Shown: positions 10,485 through 26,496 of the stretch, one piece after another
Numbering within the stretch: the stretch's first letter is position 1
Layout of the letters: every line of letters begins with the position of its first letter
NCBI GenBank assembly: GCA_029319145.1
Contig: CP119753.1
Location: forward strand, 3,596,001-3,660,000
DNA length: 64,000 bases
Direction: 5' to 3'
Source of the DNA: Microbacter sp. GSS18
GTDB taxonomy: Bacteria; Actinomycetota; Actinomycetes; Actinomycetales; Microbacteriaceae
Program-made: the position numbers and the translations under genes
Notes under the pieces: generated by a model
Told to the model about the DNA's origin: nothing
The model's database searches: none
Seen by the model: the letters and a program-made list of their open reading frames with translations, nothing else

Positions 10485-11794
10485 TGACAGGATTCACCGG
10501 ACGCCCGCGCAACGGGCGCAAGCCGCTCGCGCGCCACGCGCAGCTCGACGAGCGCGCGCCGATCATGCGCGTGCTGTCGATGATCGGCGTCTTCGTCGCC
10601 GTCGTCGCGGTCAGCGTCGTCGGCATCGGCACCGTGAACGTGTGGAGTGCGGCATCCGCCATCGGCGACAACGCCGTCGTGCTGGATGAGGACGAGGAGA
10701 TCCCGCCGTCGCTGGGTGCGATCGAGGGCGGCGTCAACGTCCTCGTCGTGGGCACCGACTCGTGCGAGGGCCAGGATCTCGAGCTCTTCCCGCGGTGCGC
10801 GCACGACGACGGCGGTGAGCGCAATGACGTCACGATGCTCGTGCACATCAGCGACAACCCCCGCCGCGTGACCGTGGTCTCCTTCCCGCGCGACATGATC
10901 GTGCCGATCCCGTCGTGCTCGGACGGCGAGGGCGGGTCGTACTCGGCCATGAGCGCCCAGATGATCAACGCGTCGTACATGTACGGCGGCCTGGCGTGCA
11001 CCGTGCGCACCGTCGAGGAGCTCACCGGCGAAGACATCCAGTTCGCGGCGGCCATCCGCTGGACGGGCGTCATCAACATGTCCGATGCCATCGGGGGCGT
11101 CGACGTGTGTGTCGCCGGTGACATCTCGGACAGCCACACGGGTCTGAACCTGACGGCCGGCAACCACACCCTGGTGGGGGCCGAGGCGCTGCAGTTCCTG
11201 CGGATCCGTCACGGCATCGGCGACGGGTCGGACCTCGGTCGCATCTCGAACCAGCAGCAGTTCATGTCGTCGATGGTGCGCAAGCTCCAGTCGGAGTCGG
11301 TGCTGGCGAATCCGTCGGTGCTGTTCAACCTGGCCACGACCGCGGTGAGCCAGGTGACGCAGGGTCAGCTCGTGCTGAGCTCGACGTTGACGAACCCGAC
11401 GCTGATGGTGCAGATCGCCATGGCCGTGAAGGACGTCGCGTACGAGGACATCGTCTTCGTGCAGTACCCGACGGTGTATTCGAGCGACTTCGTCCACGTG
11501 CTTCCGGTGACGGATGCCGCCGACGTTCTGTTCCAGGCGCTGCGCGACAACCAGGCGCTGACGCTCACCGGCGAGGCGAGCGGAGGCTACGGCGTCGAGG
11601 TCACGGGTGAGGCCGAGAAGCCGACGCCCACCCCGACCGCGGATGCGGATGCCGGATCCGGCGAGACGGCGTCGCCGACCGCGACTCCCGCGCCGACCGA
11701 GAGCGCCGCGCCCGCCGAGGAGCGGGTGGAACTGCCCTCGCAGATCACCGGCACCACCGCCGCGCAGGTCACCTGCACGGTTCCGGAGGGGTAG
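10484..11794 (+). CDS. LCP family cell-wall glycopolymer ligase, copy 3
   Basis: A 436-residue LCP protein very similar to copy 1: transmembrane helix about 25-50, extracellular domain with GGVNVLVVGTDSCEGQDLEL, NDVTMLVHISDNPRRV, SFPRDMIVPIPSC and RIRHGIGDGSDLGRISNQQQF, then an Ala/Thr/Pro-rich linker and a closing VELPSQITGTTAAQVTC. It presumably performs the same type of glycopolymer transfer. The ATG at 10484 shares one base with the stop of copy 2, and GAGGGG precedes it, so the two are coupled. A further in-frame ATG at 10457 would lie inside copy 2 and has no site of its own. Confidence 0.9.
   Translation: MTGFTGRPRNGRKPLARHAQLDERAPIMRVLSMIGVFVAVVAVSVVGIGTVNVWSAASAIGDNAVVLDEDEEIPPSLGAIEGGVNVLVVGTDSCEGQDLELFPRCAHDDGGERNDVTMLVHISDNPRRVTVVSFPRDMIVPIPSCSDGEGGSYSAMSAQMINASYMYGGLACTVRTVEELTGEDIQFAAAIRWTGVINMSDAIGGVDVCVAGDISDSHTGLNLTAGNHTLVGAEALQFLRIRHGIGDGSDLGRISNQQQFMSSMVRKLQSESVLANPSVLFNLATTAVSQVTQGQLVLSSTLTNPTLMVQIAMAVKDVAYEDIVFVQYPTVYSSDFVHVLPVTDAADVLFQALRDNQALTLTGEASGGYGVEVTGEAEKPTPTPTADADAGSGETASPTATPAPTESAAPAEERVELPSQITGTTAAQVTCTVPEG
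11156..11292 (+). repeat. Near-identical direct repeat within LCP copy 3
   Basis: Partner of 8299-8435; the only difference is G instead of C at the 24th base. The two blocks lie 2.9 kb apart in direct orientation, so recombination between them would delete LCP copy 2 and tRNA-Ser(UGA). Confidence 0.9.
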
Positions 11795-11804
11795 CGGGGT
11801 GACG

Positions 11805-11834
11805 AGGAGCGGCGTGCGAACGGCATCCGCTCCT
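11805..11834. terminator. Bidirectional hairpin between LCP copy 3 and TetR gene
   Basis: AGGAGCGG (11805-11812) and CCGCTCCT (11827-11834) are perfect 8-base inverted arms separated by 14 bases. The hairpin lies exactly between the two convergent stop codons (11794 and 11837), the expected position for a shared terminator. No T-run follows on either strand. Confidence 0.55.
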
Positions 11835-11836
11835 GG

Positions 11837-12466
11837 TCAGTCCTCCGGGCGGCCGGGGCGAATGCCCGCGGCCGGCAGGATGATGCGGTCGATGATCTCG
11901 ATGATGACCTCGCGCTGTACCGGCTGTCCCAGCATGAGCACGCGATACGCCACCATCGCCGGTCCCACCAGCGCGAGGTGCTCGACGTCGCATTCCGGGG
12001 AGATCTCGCCGCGCGCGATGGCGCGGCGGAGGGCGATGCGGTTGGCTTCGGCGCGCGGCTCGACGAGCGCGGCGCGCGCGGCCTCGGCGAGTTCGGGGGA
12101 GCGGGCGATCATCGAGACGATGCCCGCCATGACCTTGAGCTTCCGCTCCGCGTCACGGATCGATGGCGTTCCCACGAGAGCGACGAGATCCCCGCGCAGC
12201 GTGCCGGTGTCGGGTGGTGAGGCGAAGTCGATGTCGGATGCCTTCATGCATGCCACGGCGTCGAGCACGAGGTCGGGCTTCGAGGCCCAGCGGCGGTAGA
12301 GCGTGGCCTTGCCGGCCTTGGCGCGTGCCGCGACCATGTCGATGGTCATGCCGTCGTAGCCGGTCTCGGCGAGTACATCGAGCGCGGCTTCGAGGATCTC
12401 GGGATCGCGCGTGTGGTCGCGCTTGCGGCCCAGGCGCGGCTTGGCGTCGGGTTCGACCTGCGTCAT
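11837..12466 (-). CDS. TetR/AcrR family regulator of the adjacent MFS exporter
   Basis: A 209-residue TetR repressor. The DNA-binding region spans about residues 15-65: TRDPEILEAALDVLAETGYD, then GMTIDMVAARAKAGKATLYRRW. The remaining helical domain resembles the AcrR C-terminal type that binds drugs. ATG 12466 follows GGGAGGCGGG, a good ribosome binding site. It is divergent from the MFS exporter, separated by 98 bases with an imperfect dyad overlapping the exporter start region. The usual logic is repression of both genes released by an exporter substrate; this is inferred from family and layout. Confidence 0.9.
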   Translation of the reverse strand: MTQVEPDAKPRLGRKRDHTRDPEILEAALDVLAETGYDGMTIDMVAARAKAGKATLYRRWASKPDLVLDAVACMKASDIDFASPPDTGTLRGDLVALVGTPSIRDAERKLKVMAGIVSMIARSPELAEAARAALVEPRAEANRIALRRAIARGEISPECDVEHLALVGPAMVAYRVLMLGQPVQREVIIEIIDRIILPAAGIRPGRPED

Positions 12467-14163: not shown

Positions 14164-14252
14164 GGAGACGTCGCATAGTCAGGCCTAGTGCACCACCCTG
14201 CTAAGGTGGAGTCCTCGCAAGGGGACCGAGGGTTCAAATCCCTCCGTCTCCG
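14164..14252 (+). tRNA. tRNA-Ser (GCU anticodon)
   Basis: Acceptor GGAGACG (14164-14170) pairs with CGTCTCC (14245-14251), discriminator G at 14252, no encoded CCA. The anticodon arm is CCACC-CTGCTAA-GGTGG with anticodon GCT at 14200-14202; the long variable arm and GGTTCAAATCC T arm fit tRNA-Ser, reading AGC and AGU. Serine tRNAs are common integration targets, and the 3' end is repeated in imperfect form at 24027-24050. Confidence 0.97.
14231..14252 (+). repeat. Left attachment-like site (tRNA-Ser 3' end)
   Basis: GGTTCAAATCCCTCCGTCTCCG is too long to be chance when its last 15 bases (ATCCCTCCGTCTCCG, 14238-14252) recur exactly at 24036-24050, preceded there by GGTTCAA plus one extra G. 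This is the arrangement left by tyrosine recombinases that integrate into tRNA genes. Confidence 0.7.
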
Positions 14253-14262
14253 CAGAACTTCC

Positions 14263-14393: not shown

Positions 14394-14615
14394 ATGAGCC
14401 AACAGGATGCGGCGGGGTTCAGCGCGGCGGATGCGGAGACGCGGCTGCACCGCCAACTCGTGGAGATCCGAGATGCCGCTGTCGATCCACGCGTTTCGTT
14501 CGAGTTGAGTGATGCTGAGGGCGTGGTCGTCGAGGCAGCGGAGGAGCACCTGCTCGGGCGCGGTGCTGGCACGGGTCCCTCGAGCAGCGGCCTCGCGACG
14601 AGGGCGACTCATTGA
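14394..14615 (+). CDS. Possible small protein upstream of the hydrolase
   Basis: A 73-codon frame starting at ATG 14394 whose stop overlaps the TTG start of the alpha/beta hydrolase (TTGA), which would allow coupled translation. The translation has a plausible acidic helical middle (DAETRLHRQLVEIRDAAVD, then SFELSDAEGVVVEAAEEHLL) and no recognised domain. Overlapping frames on both strands are also open, so it could be a chance frame in island-end DNA. The remaining sequence between 14253 and 14611 contains only the inverted repeat and the island-end motif. Confidence 0.3.
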   Translation: MSQQDAAGFSAADAETRLHRQLVEIRDAAVDPRVSFELSDAEGVVVEAAEEHLLGRGAGTGPSSSGLATRATH

Positions 14616-15787
14616 GGGCGGGTGCAGGAGTCGCGGCCGCTGCCGGAATCGGCCTGGCCCTTGTCGCCAGCGCGGCAGGCCTCGGGTTCGCGATCGCGCG
14701 GAGGTTGACGGCACCGCCGTCGGGCAGGGTCTACGATCTCACCGTCCGGGGTATCCTGCGCCATGAGGGCCACGACGCGGTCGTCCTTGACCGCAACGCA
14801 TCGACGGTGGCGACGGGCGTCTACAACCTGTGGCTCGAGGACGGCGGGTGGGTTCGGCTCGGCCCGATCGTCGGCGAGGACGCCCGAACGGTGACGCGGC
14901 TGGTTGAGTCGGCCGAGCCGGCGGACGCGCTGGCAGTTGGCAAGCGCGCGTCGTGGAGCGGCATCTATTATCGCGATCCCGCCGACGCTGGTCTCGTCGC
15001 CCAGGACGTGATTGTGGAGACCCCGGTCGGCCCCGCGCCCGCCTGGCTGATCCGCCCGTCCGGGAACGCGACGAACAACTGGGCGATCCACATCCATGGA
15101 CTGGCGAGCCCGCGCGCGGGCACGCTCCGTGGAGTGAAGGTCGCGGCCGACGCGGGCCTCGTCTCACTCGTCGTCACTTATCGCAACGATGGCGAGGGCC
15201 CCACGGTGGGAACTGGTCGCTCCACGCTCGGTGCAACAGAGACCGACGATGTTCGCGCTGCCGTGAGGTACGCGATCGCGCACGGCGCCGAGCGGATCGT
15301 GCTGTTCGGATGGTCAATGGGCGGAGCGATCGCGCTACAGATTGCGGCTGACGACGAGTTCTGCGCCACAATTGACAGGCTCGCTCTCGACTCGCCTGTG
15401 CTCGACTGGGTGGCAACGATCGACGCGAATTGCGTCCGAGCAGGACTCCCGCGTCGGGTCGGAGTACTCGCGAGTCCGTGGCTTGGGACTCGTCTCCTCG
15501 CGCGCCTGACCGGGATGGCCGCAGAGGTTCCGCTCGACCGATTCAACTGGATGGACCGCGCCGAGGAACTGCTCGTACCGACTCTGATCCTGCAGGGAAC
15601 CTTCGACAGGTCATCTCCATACGAGGTCGCGCGCCGGCTCGCGGAAGACCGCCGTGGCTCGGTACGGCTTGAGACGGTCGCCGCGGACCACACGCTTGTC
15701 TGGAACTCAGATCCAGCTCGGTGGAAGCGGCTCGCCACGGACTTTCTGGCGGCGGCGCGTAGTCGCTGCGCTGAGACGCGCGAATAG
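14612..15787 (+). CDS. Alpha/beta hydrolase with N-terminal membrane anchor
   Basis: A 391-residue serine hydrolase. Residues 1-35 hold a hydrophobic helix (GIGLALVASAAGLGFAIA) that probably anchors it in the membrane or acts as a signal sequence. The oxyanion region HIHGLASPRAGTLRG lies near residue 155, the nucleophile elbow is GWSMGG near 233-238, an aspartate follows in ILQGTFDRSSP near 330 and the catalytic histidine is in AADHTLVW near 360. Substrate unknown. The only start giving the hydrophobic segment is TTG 14612. It is the first gene of the island and not tightly linked to the nucleotide genes; 260 bases follow it. Confidence 0.8.
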   Translation: MRAGAGVAAAAGIGLALVASAAGLGFAIARRLTAPPSGRVYDLTVRGILRHEGHDAVVLDRNASTVATGVYNLWLEDGGWVRLGPIVGEDARTVTRLVESAEPADALAVGKRASWSGIYYRDPADAGLVAQDVIVETPVGPAPAWLIRPSGNATNNWAIHIHGLASPRAGTLRGVKVAADAGLVSLVVTYRNDGEGPTVGTGRSTLGATETDDVRAAVRYAIAHGAERIVLFGWSMGGAIALQIAADDEFCATIDRLALDSPVLDWVATIDANCVRAGLPRRVGVLASPWLGTRLLARLTGMAAEVPLDRFNWMDRAEELLVPTLILQGTFDRSSPYEVARRLAEDRRGSVRLETVAADHTLVWNSDPARWKRLATDFLAAARSRCAETRE

Positions 15788-16047: not shown

Positions 16048-17334
16048 ATGGGGACCGAGTTGCCGACCAACGTCGCTGAGGCGCTGATCAAGACCGTTAA
16101 GGACGTGCGTGACACCGGCTCTGCCGTGGATTCGGCCGGTGATGGGAGGGGGTTCGTCGAGTTGCTCGGTTACACGACCGGCATGAGCAACCCCCTCGCG
16201 AGGATTGGGGCGGGCCAACGACCGCTGCCGACAGTTGGCGCTGTAGCTCGATTCGTGTGGCTCGTTTCTGGTTCCGACCGGCTCGAGGACATCGCCTACT
16301 ACGAGAGTCGAGTACGTACCTACACGGATGACGGCCTCACTGTGCCGGGTTCGTCGTACGGCAAGCGAATCTTCAACGCGTCTCCCGGGACGAACCAGAT
16401 GCGCGGCGTCGTGGACGAGCTCAAGGCAAACCCCGACAGTCGCCGAGCTGCAGCGGTCGTTTGGCTCCCCGAGGATGCAGTGCGTACGTCGAACGACATC
16501 CCGTGCACTTTTGGGCTGTTCTTCCATGTTCGCGCGGGAGCGTTGACGATGACCACGGTCATGCGATCGAACAACGCAGTGACGCTTGTGCCGTACAACT
16601 TCTTCGAGTTCTCGATGATCGGAGAGATGGTCGCCGCAGAACTCGATGTGCCCTTCGAACGCTACATTCACTGGGCTGCCTCGATGCACACGATCGACGC
16701 GCAGAATGAACTGCGAGATCAGGTGCTGGCGATTTCGGAGCCGAGGGCAATCACGATGCCTGAGATGCCCAGGGGAGGGGCGCTCGAGATGGCGAACTCG
16801 CTCGCGGCGTATGAGGCACGGCTTAGGCATGCGGGGACTGCTGAAGAACTCGTCGAGCTCGCCAACGAAGCCAGGGACGTCTTGGGTGAGTACTGGGCCG
16901 GGTTCTTCAACGTCCTCTACGTTCACGGACTCGCAAAGCGCGGGATGAGAGCAGAGGCTTGGGAGGAGTTCGAGCGAATTCCGAGCTATTTTCAGCTCGG
17001 TGCGAAGGGCGCTATCGAGAAGGTTCTTGGGCCTGAACCGCTCGACACCAGTTCCACAGACGCGCTGTTCTCGCTCGACGTAATCGAACCCCTGACGGCT
17101 GGCCACGGCGCTGCTCAGGTGGCGATGGGAGCGTCGAAAGCCGATGACGTCGACTGGCTTCTCTCAGCTCTTGGCGACCTCTCCACCCCAGAAAGACCTG
17201 TGACACTGGACGAGCTAGTCTCTGTTCGAGAGGTCCTCCGCCAGGATGACGTCGCCCTCGCGGCAAGACTTGGGGACAAGCCTCAGGATGTTGCGGACGC
17301 GTTGGCCCGTGTTCGCGAAAGCGGAGGCTCGTGA
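16048..17334 (+). CDS. Thymidylate synthase-like protein with altered active site and C-terminal extension
   Basis: A 428-residue protein whose first 270 residues fit the thymidylate synthase/pyrimidine hydroxymethylase fold: YTDDGLTVPGSSYGKRIF (92-109), the phosphate-binding arginines in NPDSRRAAAVVW (128-139), the catalytic cysteine in DIPCTFGLFFHVR (Cys153) and RSNNAVTLVPYN (173-184). Asn184 aligns with the residue that selects uracil in thymidylate synthase, but the nearby conserved Asp is Asn176, the glycine of the loop is Leu180, and the usual DxHxY signature reads SMHTI. A further 140 helical residues follow. ATG 16048 is chosen for the GGGGGAAGGGG site; the in-frame ATG at 16021 overlaps the candidate -10. 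Activity may be altered or lost. Confidence 0.8.
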   Translation: MGTELPTNVAEALIKTVKDVRDTGSAVDSAGDGRGFVELLGYTTGMSNPLARIGAGQRPLPTVGAVARFVWLVSGSDRLEDIAYYESRVRTYTDDGLTVPGSSYGKRIFNASPGTNQMRGVVDELKANPDSRRAAAVVWLPEDAVRTSNDIPCTFGLFFHVRAGALTMTTVMRSNNAVTLVPYNFFEFSMIGEMVAAELDVPFERYIHWAASMHTIDAQNELRDQVLAISEPRAITMPEMPRGGALEMANSLAAYEARLRHAGTAEELVELANEARDVLGEYWAGFFNVLYVHGLAKRGMRAEAWEEFERIPSYFQLGAKGAIEKVLGPEPLDTSSTDALFSLDVIEPLTAGHGAAQVAMGASKADDVDWLLSALGDLSTPERPVTLDELVSVREVLRQDDVALAARLGDKPQDVADALARVRESGGS

Positions 17335-18218
17335 CCTCGAGCGCTCTTGAGGTATTCAGCGACCACTGGTCGGCGAGTTCGCCTGAGGCGGCGATGATTG
17401 CGGCCGCGGAACATGCCGCCGCTGACTTCTCAAGATTTCCCCCAATCGACCCGGGGGCTGTCGCAGCCCGGTTCGGGGCTTCAGTATCTGTCGCTCCAGG
17501 GCAGCGACGTGCTGATGGGAGCCTCGCTGACCACGGCCAGCTGACTGTGCGCGAATCACGCTGGCACATTCGTGTTCCGAAGGAGCTTTCGATCGAGCGG
17601 CGGCGGTTTTCCGTTGCCCACGAGATTGGGCACATCCTCCTCTTCTCGGCGGTTGCCGATCAGCCAACGTTGGTTCGACAACTGCGGGGGAAGGCCACGT
17701 TCGCCGATGTCGAACGTCTATGCAATCTCGGCGCAGCACACGTACTGATGCCCACAGGCGTCGTTGCCGAGACCTTGCGCACCCTCCTCCCACCGACCGG
17801 CAAGAGTGTCGAGGCCTTGGCTACGCGCTTTCGCGTGTCACTCGAAGCAGCTGCGCGACGAATCGTCGAGGTGTCGCCCGAGTGGTCCGTGATCTTTTGG
17901 GAGCTCTCGACGACGCACCCCCGCGGCCAAGCATGGCGAACCTCGGGCCAGCATCAGCGTGATGATGCCCCGTACTTGCCGCCCGGACAGTCCTCATCTA
18001 GGCGGCTGCAGCCAGATGTGGTCGCCGAGGCTGCGCTGCGTGGAGAAGCATCTGCTGCCAAAGTGCTTGCGAATCTGGAGGGTGTCGTTGCCACAATGAG
18101 AGATGTATCAGCGTGGTACGTCCCTCGCGCCCGGCACGAACTGCTGGAGGTCGCGGATGATCGCGCCCGGCATCGGGAGGAACGCGTGTTCTTGTTCTAC
18201 AAAGCTGACGATCACTGA
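17331..18218 (+). CDS. ImmA/IrrE family metallopeptidase-like protein
   Basis: A 295-residue protein with an ImmA/IrrE-type zinc metallopeptidase domain in the first half. The signature is FSVAHEIGHILLF (93-105), whose HEIGH motif supplies two zinc histidines and the catalytic glutamate; a helical LMPTGVVAETL segment near 150 follows, as in this family. The last 80 residues are unassigned. Family members cleave helix-turn-helix repressors of mobile elements or regulate phage and DNA-damage responses. No such repressor is next to it. The GTG start overlaps the preceding stop (GTGA), so it is coupled to the thymidylate synthase-like gene. Confidence 0.85.
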   Translation: MTSSALEVFSDHWSASSPEAAMIAAAEHAAADFSRFPPIDPGAVAARFGASVSVAPGQRRADGSLADHGQLTVRESRWHIRVPKELSIERRRFSVAHEIGHILLFSAVADQPTLVRQLRGKATFADVERLCNLGAAHVLMPTGVVAETLRTLLPPTGKSVEALATRFRVSLEAAARRIVEVSPEWSVIFWELSTTHPRGQAWRTSGQHQRDDAPYLPPGQSSSRRLQPDVVAEAALRGEASAAKVLANLEGVVATMRDVSAWYVPRARHELLEVADDRARHREERVFLFYKADDH

Positions 18219-18237
18219 CCACTTGGGGGAGATACCT

Positions 18238-18714
18238 ATGCGTGTCTACATTTCTGGACCGTTGCAGGGAGCCGGCGACCTGGACAGCGCGCGTCGTTTC
18301 TATGACGCTCTCGCTGTGATGGTCGCCGACCTGGGACACGAGGCCTACGTTCCGCACCACTTCACGGACCCGGAGTCGGCGGGCGGCATGTCCGCCAACG
18401 CCGTGTTCACCGCCGATATTGAAGCTCTCAACCGGGCAGACGCGGTCATCGCCCACGTCGGCCTACCTTCAACGGGCGTGGGGGCGGAGATTGCGCTCGC
18501 ATCGGCGTCAGGACGCCGGGTTCTGGGTGTGAAACGAAGCTCCGAGCGCGGTTCGCGGTTTGCCGAGGGCCTCATCTCAGACACGGGGGGAGAAGTGGTC
18601 GCATTCGGCCATCAAGACGAACTTAGGAGTGCCGTCGCACGGTGGCTATCGATGCCGCCCGCGTGGTTTGGGAGCCCGAGTTCCATCGCGCCGCACCGCA
18701 GGGTTGTCGCGTGA
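18238..18714 (+). CDS. Nucleoside 2-deoxyribosyltransferase-like protein
   Basis: A 158-residue protein of the nucleoside 2-deoxyribosyltransferase superfamily. MRVYISGPL begins the nucleotide-binding strand, FTADIEALNRADAVIAHV (57-74) carries the acidic residues typical of the family, and STGVGAEIALASASGRRVLGV (78-98) contains Glu84 at the position of the glutamate nucleophile. True members exchange bases between deoxynucleosides; related proteins cleave N-glycosidic bonds of nucleotides. ATG 18238 follows GGGGGA; longer frames start inside the previous gene. Its last codons overlap the start of the kinase-like gene (GTGA). Confidence 0.8.
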   Translation: MRVYISGPLQGAGDLDSARRFYDALAVMVADLGHEAYVPHHFTDPESAGGMSANAVFTADIEALNRADAVIAHVGLPSTGVGAEIALASASGRRVLGVKRSSERGSRFAEGLISDTGGEVVAFGHQDELRSAVARWLSMPPAWFGSPSSIAPHRRVVA

Positions 18715-19349
18715 CGGCCAAGTATGTAGTCGTTACCGGATCCGTTGGTGCGGGCGCGACTACCGTGGCAAACCTGTTGCTCACCCGGTGGCAGGCGGAC
18801 GCACTGCTCGAGGGGCAAATCGAGGAGAACAACCCGTTCTTCAAGGACGCGCAAGCGGATCCTCACCGATGGGCATTCGCGAGTCAAGCGCATTTCCTGG
18901 CCGCATCGGCAGTCCGCCACGCGGAACTGTCGACGATACTTGAGGCGAGTGAATCGGACTTCGTCATCGAGGATCGCACGCCCTTTGAGCATAACGGGGC
19001 CTACGCGTCCTCGTCGCATGAGCTTGGCTACATCAGTGACCGCGAGTACGGGTTGCTGAATGACCTAGCGCGCGAGATCGAGAAGCAATACTTGCTTCCG
19101 GACCTGCTCATCTACCGCGAGATGACTTCTGAGCAGCTTGTCGAGCGCGTCGTCAACCGCGGTCGCGATGGGGAGTCGGCGGACGCTGAGCGACTCGGCG
19201 CGATCCACCGCGCATTCGAGGCTTTCATCGCGAGCTGGGACAAGACGCCCGTTGTGCGAATCCCCGCGAGCGTAGACGTTCTAAGCGCTGACGGCGAGCG
19301 GACCCTACTTGGAATGCTGGCCGAGCATCTGGGACAGCCGACGCGGTGA
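18711..19349 (+). CDS. Deoxynucleoside kinase-like protein with degenerate P-loop
   Basis: A 212-residue protein resembling deoxynucleoside kinases, which phosphorylate deoxynucleosides with ATP. The N-terminal strand YVVVTGSVGAGATTVANLL places the P-loop at residues 10-18, but the invariant lysine of GxxGxGK(S/T) is alanine (Ala16). The kinase signature DR-S/T appears as VIEDRTPFE (85-93) and a LID-like RGRDGE segment lies near residue 145. A glutamate in QIEENNPFF (36-44) matches the substrate-binding site. The lysine loss suggests weakened catalysis, an unusual mechanism or a nucleotide-sensing role. GTG 18711 overlaps the preceding stop. Confidence 0.75.
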   Translation: MTAKYVVVTGSVGAGATTVANLLLTRWQADALLEGQIEENNPFFKDAQADPHRWAFASQAHFLAASAVRHAELSTILEASESDFVIEDRTPFEHNGAYASSSHELGYISDREYGLLNDLAREIEKQYLLPDLLIYREMTSEQLVERVVNRGRDGESADAERLGAIHRAFEAFIASWDKTPVVRIPASVDVLSADGERTLLGMLAEHLGQPTR

Positions 19350-19969
19350 GCCATCAACTCCTCGAGGCAGTGCTCGCAATGCGCGAGGGCGCGAGCGCGG
19401 TCAACTTCTATCTGGATTCGAGTGACACTGCTGGAGGGTTCGCGACCACAGCGGCCGATCGGCGCGATCGCTTGGCCGAGCACCTTCGTTCCGTGAGCGC
19501 AGGAGGCGTAGTCCTTGTTGGGGAAGCAGCAGGCTGGCGCGGCGCACGGCAGTCGGGGGTGGCGTTCACATCTCCAGCGTCTGTCGGGCTTGTCGGGACC
19601 CGCGAAGCGAGCGCAACTGTCGTGCATCGCGCGCTCGCCGAAGTGAGGCTGGAACATCGAGCGCTTCTCTGGAATGCATTCCCACTGCATCCACACAAGC
19701 ATGGTGTGCCGAGGTCAAACCGAGCGCCGACGAAATCGGAACTGAATGAAGGAAAACTGGCGCTCTCATTGGCGATGGCCGGGCGCTTCGTGGTTTGCGT
19801 CGGCGGTAAGGCTGTCGAGAGCGTCGAAGACGTGCTCGCAATCTCAGTGAGTGCGCCAGATCGTGTGACAGCAGGGACGCGTGCTGTAGCTGTCCGGCAC
19901 CCGAGTTTTGGCGGGGCGGTTCAGTTCCGCGACCAACTGGTTGAAGCCGTGGCGCGGCGTGGCCTGTAG
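19346..19969 (+). CDS. Uracil-DNA glycosylase superfamily-like protein
   Basis: A 207-residue protein with the pattern of an uncharacterised uracil-DNA glycosylase branch: VLVGEAAGWRGARQSGVAFTS (56-76) is the active-site loop, LLWNAFPLHPHKHG (107-120) follows, then RSNRAPTKSEL, VVCVGGKAVESV near 150 and the closing RHPSFGGAVQFRDQL (about 185-200), the position of the DNA-intercalating H-P motif. Superfamily members excise uracil or modified bases from DNA. The substrate here is unknown. It overlaps the preceding kinase-like gene by 4 bases and ends the first operon; a 153-base gap follows. Confidence 0.75.
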   Translation: MSHQLLEAVLAMREGASAVNFYLDSSDTAGGFATTAADRRDRLAEHLRSVSAGGVVLVGEAAGWRGARQSGVAFTSPASVGLVGTREASATVVHRALAEVRLEHRALLWNAFPLHPHKHGVPRSNRAPTKSELNEGKLALSLAMAGRFVVCVGGKAVESVEDVLAISVSAPDRVTAGTRAVAVRHPSFGGAVQFRDQLVEAVARRGL

Positions 19970-20122
19970 ATCGCGCGCGCAGGCGATCGCCATTTCACAG
20001 CGGACGGATCGCGATGCGGGTGATCGGATCGCGATCGCCGTGGATGCAGAGTGTCGAGGGACATTCAGTGCGTTTCGAAGCGACTAGTCTGACCGAACGA
20101 GCTCACTGGCGTTCGGGGGGAG

Positions 20123-21388
20123 ATGACGGTGGCTGACAGCGTGATGCTGGTGGACGTCCCAGGCACGATCGCCGTCGCGCGGGTTGAGGAGCTAATCTCT
20201 CGCCTTCAGAGTGCATATGTTGAAGGCCGGGGAGCGGACCTGCGGATACCCACTCGGTTCCGCATGGATGCGCTGGGCGCAAAGGCGGCGGCAATGCAGC
20301 TGATCGGGTCCTGGGCGCGCCTCTTTCGCAAGGCGGGAGCGCTACGCACCTACTTGCGAGACGGACTCTCAGAGAGTGAGTTGGTCGACTTGCTCGATCA
20401 GGAGGAGCACCTCCTGTTTGCCGCGTGCGTCGCGCCTCGCGTGTTCTCTCAGGGGATGTCGCATGACATCACTGATGACGTGCGGCGTGCAGCTCGCAAG
20501 GTGCTTTCCAGTCGCCAGCGGGGTGCGCACAAGCGATCGATGCGAAGTGTGCTCGAGTTGGTGTCCGATGAAAGCCCCGAACTCGCGCCGTACGGTCTGT
20601 ACAGGCATGGGGACGCGCGTTACCCGCTGGATCTCAACGCAGACTACATACCTCTCGCTGACCGGATTATTGGCCTCAGCCAGACTAGGCGGAGCTCGAT
20701 CGAGGACCCGAAAGACGTCAGCAGCTTGAGCTGGACCCTTCTCGAGCTCTTTCAGAACACGGATCAGTGGGCCCGGTCGTTGCCGTGCAACGACGAAGCG
20801 GACCTCACGTCCTCGCCGTCAGCTCGTTTCATCTTCGCGCGGTGGCATAGCCTCCCGGGGGAGGTCGCAGCCCGACTTGAGGGTCAGGCGCCGGAGTTCG
20901 GGGCGTTTCTCACGCGATCGTCCACCTCCGCGGACTCCCGCGCGCGGTTCTTCGAGATCTCGATTTCGGACATGGGCCCCGGAATCGCCGGATGGAGGGC
21001 GGCTGACCTCCGCCGTCGTGTGACTGACCTGAGTGACTCCGAAGAACTGTCGCTAGTACGTTGGAGCCTCGCAAAGCGGAGGACGACTTCACTCGACCCG
21101 ACGAAGGGCATGGGGTTCCACCGCGCGTTCCTCAACCTGACTCGACTCGGCGGCATCGTGCAGATTCGTACCGGTGGGGTCTCGGTCTACCGTGACTTCC
21201 AGCGCGATCCGTACCCGAGCAACCGGGAGGCGGCGGACTCGGCATTGCCCGAGGGGCAACGGCAGAATTGGACCGATCTCCGAGGTTGGGACGGCGACAC
21301 AGCTGTTCGTCGGACGGCGGTATCTAGGGTTGTAGGGAGTCGAATCACGATGCTGATACCAGACGCCAGTAGCGAGCATGTCCTGTGA
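20123..21388 (+). CDS. GHKL-type ATPase-like protein
   Basis: A 421-residue protein whose C-terminal half has the Bergerat ATP-binding motifs. The N box is SWTLLELFQNTDQWA (Glu209, Asn212), the G1 box ISDMGPGIAG (281-290) contains Asp283 and the DxGxG pattern, and the G2 region is DPTKGMGFHRAFLNL (325-339). The first 190 residues have no known domain. GHKL ATPases include Hsp90, MutL, gyrase B and histidine kinases; no kinase dimerisation or MutL features are visible. ATG 20123 sits too close to GGGGGGAG, so the GTG two codons later (20129) is an equally good start. Its stop overlaps the next start (GTGA). Confidence 0.75.
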   Translation: MTVADSVMLVDVPGTIAVARVEELISRLQSAYVEGRGADLRIPTRFRMDALGAKAAAMQLIGSWARLFRKAGALRTYLRDGLSESELVDLLDQEEHLLFAACVAPRVFSQGMSHDITDDVRRAARKVLSSRQRGAHKRSMRSVLELVSDESPELAPYGLYRHGDARYPLDLNADYIPLADRIIGLSQTRRSSIEDPKDVSSLSWTLLELFQNTDQWARSLPCNDEADLTSSPSARFIFARWHSLPGEVAARLEGQAPEFGAFLTRSSTSADSRARFFEISISDMGPGIAGWRAADLRRRVTDLSDSEELSLVRWSLAKRRTTSLDPTKGMGFHRAFLNLTRLGGIVQIRTGGVSVYRDFQRDPYPSNREAADSALPEGQRQNWTDLRGWDGDTAVRRTAVSRVVGSRITMLIPDASSEHVL

Positions 21389-23829
21389 TCGGGTCGGTTT
21401 CCCAGCGTTCCGAGTTCTTCTACTTTCAGACGGATCTGAGATTGCATGAGTCACTCCGTGCCGGAGTGACAGTCGCCTTCTGTGCTGAGCGCTATTTCGA
21501 CAGCCAGCGACTGGGAGAGGGCCTAAAGGCCGCGGTGGCCTTCCCAAATGACCCCGCGCTCGTGCTCGTGCTGGGACTTGAGCCGAATGCGGAGGCATTC
21601 TCCGACATCCGGGGCGACCTAGAGGACTGGGTGCCGCCCGATGTCAAGATCGCGACTGCTCTTCTCTCGCATGACCGTAGGTTGACGATTTGGGGTGATA
21701 ATCCGGAGGGCATCTTGGACGAGAAACGGCTCGAGGAATATTGCGATGAGTTGTTCGTTGCCGGGCTTGAGGAGATGTTCTACAGCGGTTCGACTGTCAT
21801 CCGTTCCGCGCCGGGGTACCACTTTGAAGCACCGGGTGGCAAGCACATGAGCACTTTCGTCCGCGCCGGCAGCATGTTCACTGACTCGGCACGCACGGCG
21901 TTCGCGGCTTGCTCCATCCTGGACAAGATTGGTTCGCTCGGCTCGATTCGCTACGTATCGACCGACACATCCTCGATCAATGCGCTCGCGTACGAGCTTC
22001 GTCGCCTTCAGGATGTCTATTGCCCAGACGAGCCGGCGGCGGTGGTTGGCTCGTTCGGCGGCCACCGTGCGTTTGACCAAAGGCTCTCGCTGGACCCAGC
22101 GCGGTCTACGCTATTTCTCGTTTCTGTATCCTCGACGGGGTCGCTCATCCGGCGCATTCTGGACGAGCGCGACGGGGCTCGCATCGTCGTGCTCGTTGCA
22201 GTCGGCGAAACAATCCATGGTTCAAGTGCGATGTACTCGCCCGGCGTGCGAGCCGGGAGTGAGAACGGCATCGACGATGTTGATGCCGAGGCTCAGGACC
22301 GACGCTCATGCCACCGATGCACCAACTACAACGAGACTGTAGTGAAGATCGATGGCGAGCAACTGCTACCGCTAACCCCCTCCGTCTACTCGCGGTTGCT
22401 CATTCGCGATCAGGCTCGGGCGTGGGAGCCGCGGCATCTCGAAGCCATCGTCGCGCTAGATGCAGTTCAAGCGCACTACGTTCCGAAGACGCGCGGCAAG
22501 AATGCTACCCGCCGACCGATCTACCTTGAGTTTGAGGCGTTTCTCGGCGATCTAGATGCGCCAAAGTCCGAGGGCGAGCCCGACTCAATCACTACTCTGC
22601 GGGAGGAAACAGTCGCCAAGTTGAGGGGGATGACTGACAAGCTACGCCCGACTCATATCGTGTACCTTTCCGATCCTTCGTCCGAAGCGTTGGCGAGGAG
22701 CGCGCAGCGATTGTCCGGGCTGACTCCGACGCTCTTGGAGGCGCGAGCCCTGCTCAGCGGAACATCCGGCATTGACCCGCATCGCGAGAATCGCATCCTC
22801 ATTGTTGCCTCCGCGGTTTCAAGTGGGAGCGCCATCAACTCAGTTAGCAGGGACATCCGGCCGTTCGTCGAGCGCTCATCAGTGTCCTATTTTGTCTTCC
22901 TCGCTAGAACGCAGGATGGCGCCGTCTGGAACTTCGTGAGAAGTAACCTCATGGTCGGCAAGCACACCGCCGGTTCGACGAATGTGGAGTCAGTCATCTC
23001 GGCGTGGCTTCCGAGCGAGAAGACACTCCTTGGGTCCGTTTGGGACCACGAACTGTCATTCTGGGACAAGATTGCCCGTGTCTCCGAATACGGCAGCAAA
23101 GGCGGACACTTCGCGAGCGCGCTTGAGCAAGTCGCAGTGCGTCGCGATCGTCTGGAGTCGGGTGGACTCAGGGACGATCTGTTCCTGTCGGCCTCATCAG
23201 ACATCAACGACACCACCCAACCGCTCCGGCTCAATCCGAATTTCGCGTTCTGGTCGTTTGGCTACGATCCTTCGAGCGTTCGACAGTCTGCGGTATACAT
23301 GACCTTCGCAGCGGTTCTCGACTGGTCGCGAAGCCCGGGCGGGCGGAAGGACCCTGCGGACTACCACCTCCAAGACGCCGAGCTGGAGATTGAGAGGTAT
23401 GCGGACACGACGCAGCGCCAGCACAATCTCACCGCGCTCCATCCGTTCAACTTCGACCGCTATAACGATGCGGTCACCAACTGTGCACTCCTGCGTGGTG
23501 CGCTCCCGTGGGAGCTCGACTACTCAGCATCGCCGGGTCTCAGCGCAAGCATGCTTGGAGTGCTGGATGGCGTAGTGGAGAGGTACGAGCGAAGCCCGGC
23601 GGAGTCTCCGCTTGTTGAGTATCTCCTTGCCATTGCGTCGCGGAGACTCAGGCTCCACCCCGCCCACCTTGACCTCTTCCTGGAAAGGCTAAACATCGAG
23701 TTGCCTCCCGTCGCTCGGCTCCTCGCGCACTACATCGTTTCGTCCTTGATCGACGGACCATTGACGGCTGCCGCGGCCTCTCCCGCGGTTGGCGAGTCCA
23801 TCTGGTCCCGCGCGGGTTCGGCTCAATAG
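21385..23829 (+). CDS. Large protein with two degenerate phosphoribosyltransferase-like motifs
   Basis: An 814-residue soluble protein I cannot assign to a named family. GKHMSTFVRAGSMF (152-165) resembles the start of a type I phosphoribosyltransferase domain, and two hydrophobic strand-loops resemble the PRPP-binding motif: TLFLVSVSSTGSLI (242-255) and RILIVASAVSSGSAI (470-484). In both, the usual acidic pair is absent. A CHRC knuckle lies at 309-312. The last 300 residues are helical. Coupled by a 4-base overlap to the GHKL-type ATPase gene, it may form a two-protein ATP-driven or nucleotide-sensing module. Base composition is lower in G/C than the flanking chromosome. Function unknown. Confidence 0.65.
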   Translation: MIGSVSQRSEFFYFQTDLRLHESLRAGVTVAFCAERYFDSQRLGEGLKAAVAFPNDPALVLVLGLEPNAEAFSDIRGDLEDWVPPDVKIATALLSHDRRLTIWGDNPEGILDEKRLEEYCDELFVAGLEEMFYSGSTVIRSAPGYHFEAPGGKHMSTFVRAGSMFTDSARTAFAACSILDKIGSLGSIRYVSTDTSSINALAYELRRLQDVYCPDEPAAVVGSFGGHRAFDQRLSLDPARSTLFLVSVSSTGSLIRRILDERDGARIVVLVAVGETIHGSSAMYSPGVRAGSENGIDDVDAEAQDRRSCHRCTNYNETVVKIDGEQLLPLTPSVYSRLLIRDQARAWEPRHLEAIVALDAVQAHYVPKTRGKNATRRPIYLEFEAFLGDLDAPKSEGEPDSITTLREETVAKLRGMTDKLRPTHIVYLSDPSSEALARSAQRLSGLTPTLLEARALLSGTSGIDPHRENRILIVASAVSSGSAINSVSRDIRPFVERSSVSYFVFLARTQDGAVWNFVRSNLMVGKHTAGSTNVESVISAWLPSEKTLLGSVWDHELSFWDKIARVSEYGSKGGHFASALEQVAVRRDRLESGGLRDDLFLSASSDINDTTQPLRLNPNFAFWSFGYDPSSVRQSAVYMTFAAVLDWSRSPGGRKDPADYHLQDAELEIERYADTTQRQHNLTALHPFNFDRYNDAVTNCALLRGALPWELDYSASPGLSASMLGVLDGVVERYERSPAESPLVEYLLAIASRRLRLHPAHLDLFLERLNIELPPVARLLAHYIVSSLIDGPLTAAAASPAVGESIWSRAGSAQ

Positions 23830-24026: not shown

Positions 24027-24050
24027 GGGTTCAAGATCCCTCCGTCTCCG
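24027..24050 (+). repeat. Right attachment-like site
   Basis: GGGTTCAAG followed by ATCCCTCCGTCTCCG reproduces the tRNA-Ser 3' end apart from one extra G after GGTTCAA. The preceding bases do not fold into a tRNA, so it is a target-site remnant rather than a gene. Confidence 0.7.
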
Positions 24051-24958: not shown

Positions 24959-25107
24959 CGCCGGACGGCGTCCTTCGACATCGACGGTGCAGCGCCCGTC
25001 GGTGGTGGTCCGGCGTTCTCGGCGGCAACACGCCGCGTGGGCTCGCGTGACCGCCCCGGCGTCCCGGCCGACGAGTGTGAGCGCGCCCGGGTGGGCCTTC
25101 CCGGATG

Positions 25108-25137
25108 TTGACAAGAGCCGTTCGGCCCTCGTACCTT
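25108..25137 (+). promoter_or_regulatory. Candidate promoter of glyA-soxBDAG
   Basis: TTGACA (25108-25113) and TACCTT (25132-25137) are separated by 18 bases. The GntR-like palindrome begins 13 bases after the -10, so bound protein would overlap the transcription start. Confidence 0.5.
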
Positions 25138-25149
25138 GTGATCAGCAGT

Positions 25150-25159
25150 AGATATATCA
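25150..25159. promoter_or_regulatory. GntR operator-like palindrome 3
   Basis: AGATATATCA shares the GATATATC core with the two sites upstream of the GntR gene and lies 30 bases before the glyA ATG. Confidence 0.6.
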
Positions 25160-25188
25160 ATCGTCGATCAGATGAGATGGAGCCGCTC

Positions 25189-26496
25189 ATGACACTTGCC
25201 GGCGCAGTCCGGGACGGCATCAGCCTCGCCGCCGACCTCGCCGAGGTCGACCCCGAAGTCCACGCCGCCATCGACGCCGAGTTGGCGCGGCAGCGCGGCA
25301 CACTGGAGATGATCGCGAGCGAGAACTTCGCTCCGCTCGCCGTCATGCAGGCGCAGGGGTCGGTGCTCACGAACAAGTACGCCGAGGGCTACCCGGGGCG
25401 TCGGTACTACGGCGGGTGCGAGAACGTCGATGTGATCGAGCGGCTCGCCGTCGACCGCCTCAAGGCGCTCTTCGGCGCCGAGTACGCGAATGTCCAGCCC
25501 CACTCCGGTGCGCAGGCGAACGCCGCCGCGATGGCCGCGCTGCTGACTCCCGGCGACACGATCCTGGGACTCGATCTCGCCCACGGCGGCCACCTCACAC
25601 ACGGCATGCACCTGAACTTCTCGGGCAAGCTCTACAACGCCGTGGCGTATCGCGTGCGCGAGGACTCTCACCTCATCGACTACGACGAGATCGAGCGTCT
25701 CGCCCTCGAGCACGAACCGAAGCTGATCGTCGCCGGCTGGTCCGCCTACCCCCGCCAGCTCGACTTCGCGCGATTCCGCAGCATCGCCGACCGAGTGGGG
25801 GCGTATCTCATGGTCGACATGGCGCACTTCGCCGGCCTCGTCGCGGCCGGCCTGCACCCGAACCCGGTGCCGCACGCGCACATCGTCACCTCGACCACGC
25901 ACAAGACGCTCGGCGGTCCCCGCGGCGGTGTCATACTCGCGACCTCCGAGCTCGCCAAGCGGCTCAACAGCTCCGTGTTCCCCGGCCAGCAGGGCGGGCC
26001 CCTCGAGCACGTCATCGCCGCAAAAGCGGTCGCGTTCAAGCTCGCCGCGAGTCCTGAGTTCCGGGAACGGCAGGAGCGCACCCTTCGCGGCGCGAAGATC
26101 ATCGCCGAGCGCCTGCAGCGGCCGGATGCGGTGGCCGCCGGCATCGGTGTGGTCTCGGGCGGAACGGATGTGCACCTGGTCCTCGTCGACCTGCGCCATT
26201 CGGAACTCGACGGACAGCAGGCCGAGGACCGGCTTCACGAGATCGGCATCACCGTCAACCGCAACGCCGTTCCGTTCGATCCCCGGCCGCCGATGATCAG
26301 TTCCGGTGTGCGCATCGGCACGCCGGCGCTCGCCGCCCGCGGGTTCGGTGACGAGGAGTTCCGTGTCGTCGCCGACCTCATCGCCACCGTGCTGCAGCCG
26401 GGGCTCGATGCCGGCGCGATGCTGACGCTGGCCGAGCAGGTCGCCGACCTCGCCGACGCATTCCCCCTCTACGACGGAGTGGAAGAGCGAGCATGA
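25189..26496 (+). CDS. glyA: Serine hydroxymethyltransferase
   Basis: A 435-residue PLP enzyme interconverting serine and glycine with tetrahydrofolate. Recognisable parts are the N-terminal [36 protein letters not shown], the PLP lysine in [13 protein letters not shown] (near residue 235) and [18 protein letters not shown]. Placed first in the sarcosine oxidase operon, it probably condenses glycine with methylene-tetrahydrofolate made by sarcosine oxidase to give serine, so it is likely a catabolic copy beside a housekeeping one elsewhere. ATG 25189 follows GGAG with 6-base spacing; an ATG four codons earlier is also possible. It overlaps soxB by 4 bases. Confidence 0.95.

Follow-up and report, generated by a model that had tools for sequence, protein, structure and literature searches.

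This analysis concerns seven adjacent genes in a 64,000-nucleotide stretch of the Microbacter sp. GSS18 genome (contig CP119753.1, positions 3,596,001 to 3,660,000; hereafter the window, in whose numbering Table 1 is given), and in particular a five-gene cassette that may act on 5-hydroxymethyl-deoxyuridine monophosphate (5-hydroxymethyl-dUMP). The genes lie head to tail in two groups, 16048-19969 (genes 1 to 5) and 20123-23829 (genes 6 and 7). None of the seven open reading frames (ORFs) is interrupted, their start and stop positions are plausible, and 4-base overlaps occur at four of the five junctions inside the groups, with a 19-base gap between genes 2 and 3; the two operons with mostly 4-base overlaps proposed in the original prediction, a reading of the bare sequence, were thus confirmed. 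A scan for promoters and terminators gave a result no better than that obtained with shuffled sequence. Above the Pfam cut-off, gene 1 matches the thymidylate synthase (TS) family Thymidylat_synt (3e-16), gene 2 Peptidase_M78 (7e-14), gene 3 the nucleoside deoxyribosyltransferase (NDT) family Nuc_deoxyrib_tr (1.6e-9), gene 4 the deoxynucleoside kinase family dNK (1.5e-21), and gene 5 the uracil-DNA glycosylase (UDG) family UDG (6e-8); nothing in Pfam reached the cut-off for genes 6 and 7. The family names first given to genes 1 to 5 agree with these matches, whereas the GHKL label of gene 6 depends on motifs read by eye and the phosphoribosyltransferase (PRTase) label of gene 7 on a degenerate motif.

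Table 1. Positions and predicted products of the seven genes and of the features that bound them
Feature	Position	Strand	Description
tRNA-Ser (GCT)	14164..14253	+	left attachment-like site at its 3' end
Left repeat copy	14238..14252	+	15-base direct repeat ATCCCTCCGTCTCCG, within the tRNA-Ser 3' end
Alpha/beta hydrolase	14612..15787	+	Pfam; between the repeats
Gene 1	16048..17334	+	428 aa; TS family, hydroxymethylase signature, C-terminal helical extension of ~100 residues
Gene 2	17331..18218	+	295 aa; M78 (ImmA/IrrE-type) protease, HEIGH at 97-101
Gene 3	18238..18714	+	158 aa; putative NDT/DNPH1-like nucleotide N-glycosidase
Gene 4	18711..19349	+	212 aa; deoxynucleoside-kinase-like, Ala in place of the Walker A Lys (GSVGAGATT)
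Gene 5	19346..19969	+	207 aa; UDG superfamily, predicted fold nearest SMUG1
Gene 6	20123..21388	+	421 aa; PDC-M65A, GHKL-like motifs; separate module
Gene 7	21385..23829	+	814 aa; PDC-M65B, two SSTG/SSGS-type motifs; separate module
Right repeat copy	24036..24050	+	second occurrence of the 15-base repeat, identical at every base

Judged from sequence, genes 1 to 5 are a mobile cassette on an island bounded by duplicated tRNA-Ser 3' ends. A repeat match of this kind, with one mismatch allowed, is expected 0.01 times by chance in the window, and the two copies are 81 percent alike when extended to 26 bases. The GC content is 0.62 over the seven genes and 0.70 outside the repeats, and the host's own ThyA is encoded elsewhere in the genome; with the flanking repeats, these features support the proposal that the region was transferred. 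No integrase was recognized by Pfam among the eight genes between the repeats (the seven studied and the alpha/beta hydrolase). A second partial copy (56 to 65 bases) of the tRNA 3' end lies on the same contig, within 50 kb, in at least 6 of the 59 same-genus genomes listed (G396, G034, G025, G013, G821, and G033 among the matches listed), a pattern consistent with a hot spot of integration. The strongest gene 1 match in 34 same-genus genomes had an E value of 4e-18 and 32 percent identity (G022); in the others, matches were no better than 3e-10 or were lacking. Just outside the right repeat, at 25105-26496 and ahead of a FAD oxidoreductase gene, is a serine hydroxymethyltransferase (SHMT) gene whose product would make methylenetetrahydrofolate; the same genome has a second SHMT gene at C1:2042919.

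Predicted activities of the five cassette genes

Gene 1 is predicted to work like a dUMP hydroxymethylase. Its best solved match is MilA, a CMP 5-hydroxymethylase (1.4e-27), which also ranks first by fold against the AlphaFold model of gene 1 (mean predicted local distance difference test [pLDDT] score, 89.6). The hydroxymethylation signature of T4 dCMP hydroxymethylase, as described in the available text of the source (PMC6400193), consists of an Asp three residues before the Cys plus a Ser and a Tyr two apart. The corresponding gene 1 residues S102, Y104, D150, and C153 are each invariant in an alignment of 36 relatives, chosen from the 120 that were listed out of 196 matches. MilA prefers CMP by virtue of Ala176 and Lys133, and Ser and Arg at these sites switch its preference to dCMP; gene 1 has the deoxyribose-type Ser174 and Arg132, each conserved in 36/36. 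Likewise, T4 Asp179 sets the choice of cytosine, and the gene 1 family has a uracil-type Asn184 throughout (36/36). Controls in the same alignment showed the residues expected of them: in the host's own ThyA, Leu stands three before the Cys, position 176 is Asp, and position 184 is Asn; a bacimethrin-like TS from Priestia has Lys132, Ala174, and Asp184; and TS proteins adjoining aGPT-Pplase genes have Asp or Glu three before the Cys and Asp184. With D150 and N176, gene 1 departs from the ThyA type, which has Leu three before the Cys and Asp169. SPO1 gp29, annotated as a dUMP hydroxymethylase, shares with gene 1 the Asp three before the Cys and the equivalents of Asn184, Ser174, and Arg132; however, the gene 1 family differs from gp29 in having Asn for the folate Asp, in keeping the signature Ser, and in forming a clade of its own (support, 100/100).

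The C-terminal extension of gene 1 is modelled as helices that follow a poorly predicted linker (residues 347 to 362). Unsplit cassette TS proteins have 428 to 699 residues, the aligned phage and plasmid relatives 299 to 336, and SPO1 gp29 383; the extension may not be specific to the cassette, many homologues of 321 to 345 residues, seen as proteins alone, being among the matches listed.

Gene 3 would be the nucleotide N-glycosidase of the set. Its best matches in the PDB are entries for DNPH1, the 5-hydroxymethyl-dUMP N-hydrolase (9e-5), and MilB-type CMP glycosidases match it weakly (0.02 to 0.15). Residues Y22, D60, S78, and E84 are invariant in 13/13 rows (the window plus 12 matches at E < 1e-15, two partial fragments from locus L025 having been dropped). 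The catalytic Tyr, Asp, and Glu are present as Y22, D60, and E84, the Tyr being assigned by family conservation, and the D60-E84 spacing equals that of DNPH1 D80-E104, as S78-E84 equals that of MilB Ser97-E103.

The HExxH motif of gene 2 is kept in the window and in 12/12 homologues, and no helix-turn-helix (HTH) domain was recognized in the protein by Pfam. Gene 2 matches capP (3.2e-21, its best PADLOC match) and IrrE (3e-10), a likeness to the CapH/CapP pair of the cyclic oligonucleotide-based antiphage signaling system (CBASS) and to IrrE/DdrO; however, neither a CBASS cyclase (CD-NTase) nor an effector or repressor was recognized among the seven genes by Pfam or PADLOC, and a CBASS identity was rejected for want of a recognized cyclase. 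Gene 4 and its two homologues retain an EDR motif. The claim that several members lack a canonical catalytic residue held in part: it applies to the Walker A Lys of gene 4 and the folate-contact Asp of gene 1, whereas the catalytic residues of genes 2 and 3 are intact. The model of gene 5 is confident (pLDDT, 94.6), its fold is nearest SMUG1 by two methods, and E60, A61, and G63 are invariant over 40 rows.

Recurrence of the cassette

Relatives of gene 1 are encoded at at least 15 loci, found in a scan of 84,980 species, each represented by a single genome, for two exact peptide patterns taken from the gene 1 family alignment; since only two exact patterns were used, this number is a lower bound. 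With profiles derived from the window, TS, M78, and NDT genes were found in this order on the same strand at 12 of the 15 loci, in the Actinomycetota, Alphaproteobacteria, and Bacteroidota (Pedobacter). An NDT gene of the gene 3 type occurs at 13/15, the thirteenth being that of Cerasicoccus (L014; Verrucomicrobiota), where the order is kinase, NDT, TS. A P-loop kinase is present at 11/15, of the dNK type in L012 and L013 and of an AAA_28 type with an intact Walker A motif in the nine others, and a UDG-like gene at 4/15 (L012, L013, L020, and L021; on the opposite strand in three). The ordered core is missing from L014, from L023 (a truncated TS only), and from L026, a lone TS with Ala174, Lys132, and Asp at 176; L025, which has a split TS, ends at its contig edge. 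Genes of integrase type are found in the vicinity of L013, L014, and L015. In L014, the gene after the TS (11372-12298) has a weak M78 match (0.084) and is possibly a degenerate protease. At least five of the seven genes, the co-occurrence that had been looked for, were found together at just two of the 15 loci (L012 and L013), which does not support a set of seven; what recurs is the three-gene TS-M78-NDT core.

A tree was built from 27 TS-family proteins, namely gene 1, those from 12 of the 15 loci, and 14 more. A single clade with a support of 100/100 unites the cassette proteins with one phage protein and the L026 protein and stands apart from the bacimethrin-like, aGPT-type, and SPO1-type enzymes, several of the branches being long. 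Occurrence is sparse. In 396 genomes of the window's phylum, the gene 1 family was found at 1e-60 solely in the window's own genome, and in 396 genomes of its order, at 1e-30, in 11, own genome included. The TS-M78-NDT set was absent from the 3.6 to 3.9 kb examined around each of the ten other same-order relatives, six of which have an NDT-like gene beside the TS.

Proposed 5-hydroxymethyl-dUMP axis and competing explanations

The explanation that we favor, with a probability of about 0.42, is that genes 1 to 5 are a mobile cassette built on a 5-hydroxymethyl-dUMP axis, diverting dUMP via 5-hydroxymethyl-dUMP to hydroxymethyluracil. The genes, the recurring cassette, the active-site residues, the folds, and the island ends are supported by sequence or by models; the flow of substrate, a role in defense, its trigger, and every step of regulation are inferred. 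Gene 1 would convert dUMP to 5-hydroxymethyl-dUMP, and gene 3 would split this nucleotide into free 5-hydroxymethyluracil and deoxyribose 5-phosphate; in series, the two would, once switched on, drain a dTTP precursor and methylene-folate, and infection by a phage is the most likely occasion for this. The gene 2 protease is the probable switch and may act on the linker of gene 1, gene 4 is probably a sensor or feeder that binds a deoxynucleotide or nucleoside, and gene 5 would excise hydroxymethyluracil that reaches DNA. What is conserved is the core, a predicted maker and a predicted destroyer of 5-hydroxymethyl-dUMP together with a protease; the drain relies on these parts alone and does not require incorporation. 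A bolder version, which we consider rather unlikely, is that of an immune system in which 5-hydroxymethyl-dUMP is the weapon or signal, with a TS-family maker, a DNPH1-like destroyer, and release by the M78 protease, maybe via the C-terminal linker of the hydroxymethylase; human DNPH1 and SMUG1 would be an echo of the same chemistry. The human sanitation enzymes belong to the solved families nearest to genes 3 and 5; the cassette differs from them in adding a predicted maker of the nucleotide and in motif 1 of gene 5.

A number of observations weigh against this interpretation. Asn replaces the pterin-contacting D169 of Escherichia coli TS in 35/36 members of the gene 1 family (N176 in gene 1) and His in 1/36, although both SPO1 gp29 and MilA retain the Asp; the use of folate by gene 1 is therefore uncertain, and because of this replacement we do not assign gene 1 to the dUMP hydroxymethylase class. 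The signature Ser is missing from gp29 and hence is not universal. By a by-eye reading of the motif, gene 3 appears to have Gln10 where MilB has Arg23, the residue with which MilB recognizes the hydroxymethyl group; DNPH1 contacts that group in another way. Pfam recognized no HTH repressor in the operon on which the M78 protease could act. The Walker A Lys is Ala in gene 4 and both homologues found (3/3; the window, L012, and L013), and the kinase slot of the nine other loci is filled by a different family. For gene 5, a profile search of the PDB pointed to no clear UDG family and gave only weak matches (family 4 UDG, 0.03 and 0.14; unrelated polymerases, 0.14), for which reason the comparison of folds was used. 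There, the best SMUG1 Z score is only 1.3 above that of family 4 UDG, which the lower SMUG1 rows do no more than equal. UDG families are told apart by motif type, and motif 1 of SMUG1 carries the catalytic Asn; motif 1 of gene 5 is instead GEA[AP]G, which is family 4-like. Outside the Actinomycetota, a UDG-like gene is present at just two of 12 loci. The neighborhood evidence is likewise qualified: known defense genes lie near four of the five cassette loci scanned, in a survey of ten ORFs chosen by eye and with no random control. These neighbors are IetS at L012, pAgo with SIR2 plus PDC-S01 at L015, a SIR2 match and SoFic at L018, and PD-Lambda-2_B with a weak E1-E2 match at L020; among the neighbors scanned at L017, there was no defense gene.

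It could also be envisaged that the product of gene 1 is phosphorylated and built into phage DNA, which is then shredded through excision by gene 5, with gene 3 serving as the antidote that holds down its level until the protease is triggered. The predicted chemistry of genes 1 and 5 and the kinship of gene 3 to the human sanitizer favor such a poisoned pool, as does a linkage proxy: in a large protein set, of which 84 of 97 gene 5 rows were used, 17 of the 60 gene 1 homologues compared (14 of the top 26) had exactly the longest-contig size of a gene 5 homologue, and this identity suggests that the two are linked. We nevertheless regard the explanation as unlikely, since the UDG-like gene occurs at far fewer loci than the would-be antidote (4/15 versus 13/15) and gene 4 is without its Walker A lysine.

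Less probable again is that free 5-hydroxymethyluracil or a derivative is made as an antimetabolite or signal, in the way that hydroxymethylcytosine is made by MilA/MilB (mildiomycin) and BcmA/BcmB (bacimethrin). These clusters likewise pair a TS-family hydroxymethylase with an NDT-like nucleotide N-glycosidase, and an NDT-TS pair adjoins a methyltransferase gene on a Priestia plasmid. However, MilA and MilB act on CMP and hydroxymethyl-CMP, respectively, whereas the gene 1 family has the uracil Asn and the deoxyribose Ser and Arg, which also set it apart from the Priestia and L031 enzymes (Asp184, Ala174, and Lys132); and the cassette, unlike both pairs, has a C-terminal extension on its TS and an M78 protease as a partner. 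Furthermore, no recurring tailoring or export gene was noticed beside the cassette in the ORF listing, of which no systematic search was made, and the defense neighbors speak against such a route.

Slightly less probable still is a countermeasure against phages with hydroxymethyluracil or hypermodified DNA, in which gene 3 destroys the phage nucleotide, gene 5 excises the base from phage DNA, and genes 1 and 4 are noncatalytic binding sensors. In its favor are the atypical residues of genes 1 and 4 and the fact that Papyrusvirus mycobacteriophages carry a solitary TS belonging to this clade, with 48 percent identity, but the invariance of Cys153 and the hydroxymethylase Asp in 36/36 relatives is unexpected in a mere sensor.

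The original prediction took all seven genes as one system, with the GHKL and PRTase-like proteins acting together with the nucleotide genes. All seven are located between the same two repeats; however, neither gene 6 nor gene 7 has a match at any of the 15 gene 1-family loci, up to 10 kb on each side, with single-sequence queries that could miss a very divergent copy, and Pantoea and Spirosoma plasmids have relatives of genes 6 and 7 without genes 1 to 5 in the annotated stretches. We rejected the seven-gene system on this basis and consider it very improbable. PADLOC identifies gene 6 as PDC-M65A (1.1e-22) and gene 7 as PDC-M65B (1.6e-67), adjacent and near full length, and by comparison of sequences the two are best treated as a neighboring, separate PDC-M65 module. 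The motifs ELFQN, DMGPG, and KGMGF of gene 6 are by-eye candidates for the GHKL N, G1, and G2 boxes, and the E..N, D.G.G, and KG.G positions are common to two distant relatives. Type I PRTases are defined by an acidic pair in the phosphoribosyl pyrophosphate (PRPP) loop; the PRPP-loop-like motif of gene 7, ILIVASAVSSGS, has no such pair, and gene 7 does not qualify as a type I PRTase. In the 396 genomes of the window's phylum, PDC-M65B was found at 1e-10 solely in the window's own genome. PDC-M65 is itself a catalogued candidate only, with phage protection predicted, and a full-text search of the open literature for the name returned no paper. On the Spirosoma plasmid (L046:233-8843), the PDC-M65-like genes are split by an extra 138-aa gene and lie near PDDEXK and double-stranded DNA nuclease genes.

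Finally, it is hardly credible that these are ordinary pyrimidine salvage enzymes, as their generic Pfam names might suggest and as the original prediction had itself set against its proposal, given that a plain ThyA or salvage identity was rejected on the diagnostic residues of gene 1 and on the host's own ThyA, which is encoded elsewhere with TS-type residues, and that the island ends, the sparse occurrence, and the defense neighbors also speak against it.

The view of the region as an island of divergent pyrimidine-deoxynucleotide genes and as a candidate undescribed system was upheld for the cassette. Genes 1, 3, and 5 had no PADLOC match at E <= 1, and no system of this composition was described in the titles and abstracts returned by full-text searches of open papers; the recurring gene set is so far unnamed, whereas the PDC-M65 pair is already catalogued. 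The closest published context is DefensePredictor (2026), the available text of which reports TS, dNMP kinase, and 5-hydroxymethyldeoxyuridine DNA kinase systems validated in E. coli defense; its legend to the predicted systems lists aGPT-Pplase and UDG (PMC13092281). TS-family and kinase domains are thus common to that work and the cassette, and the terms "ImmA," "deoxyribosyl," and "nucleoside kinase" do not occur in its main text (PMC13092281). Hydroxymethyluracil phages and the human sanitizer DNPH1 are the settings in which 5-hydroxymethyl-dUMP is best known; if our favored explanation is true, a bacterial mobile module that handles it would be an added immune mechanism of the deoxynucleotide pool, gene 1 would represent a hydroxymethylase family with an altered folate contact, and TS-family enzymes would have a testable role in defense, the one validated in 2026 having come, in the available text, without a stated mechanism. 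With the cassette set apart from PDC-M65, each can be tested alone.

Related thymidylate synthase genes outside the cassette

Lone TS genes that belong to the cassette family but lack the C-terminal extension occur in Papyrusvirus mycobacteriophages and one viral contig (L039:6004-7008 and L054:8001-8933); the search of viral contigs gave a single lone TS. The tree places the protein of Zenon next to that of the Blastococcus cassette.

A second TS module was found at L040:7992-11792, L042:7929-10925, L044:7899-10872, and L030:1483-3883, on Leptospira, Agrobacterium, and phage-like Pantoea plasmids and, for L030, in a genome of the window's order. Here, a TS with dCMP-hydroxymethylase-type residues (Asp184) adjoins an aGPT-Pplase3/ADDT gene, one gene further away in L040, and an M78 gene lies on the opposite strand, the M78 match being weak in L030. 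The arrangement resembles a cassette for DNA hypermodification that has an M78 gene as its partner.

At L031 to L035 and L038, an NDT gene is paired with a TS that, in the one case checked (L031), has CMP-hydroxymethylase residues. A ThiD-like gene, identified by eye, lies beside most of these pairs, which possibly represent a thiamin-antivitamin route. In addition, a Geobacillus plasmid (L043:6041-14993) carries two TS-like genes with genes for a phosphotransferase, a NUDIX protein, an AAA ATPase, and an ABC transporter, and one of its two TS proteins has His three residues before the Cys.

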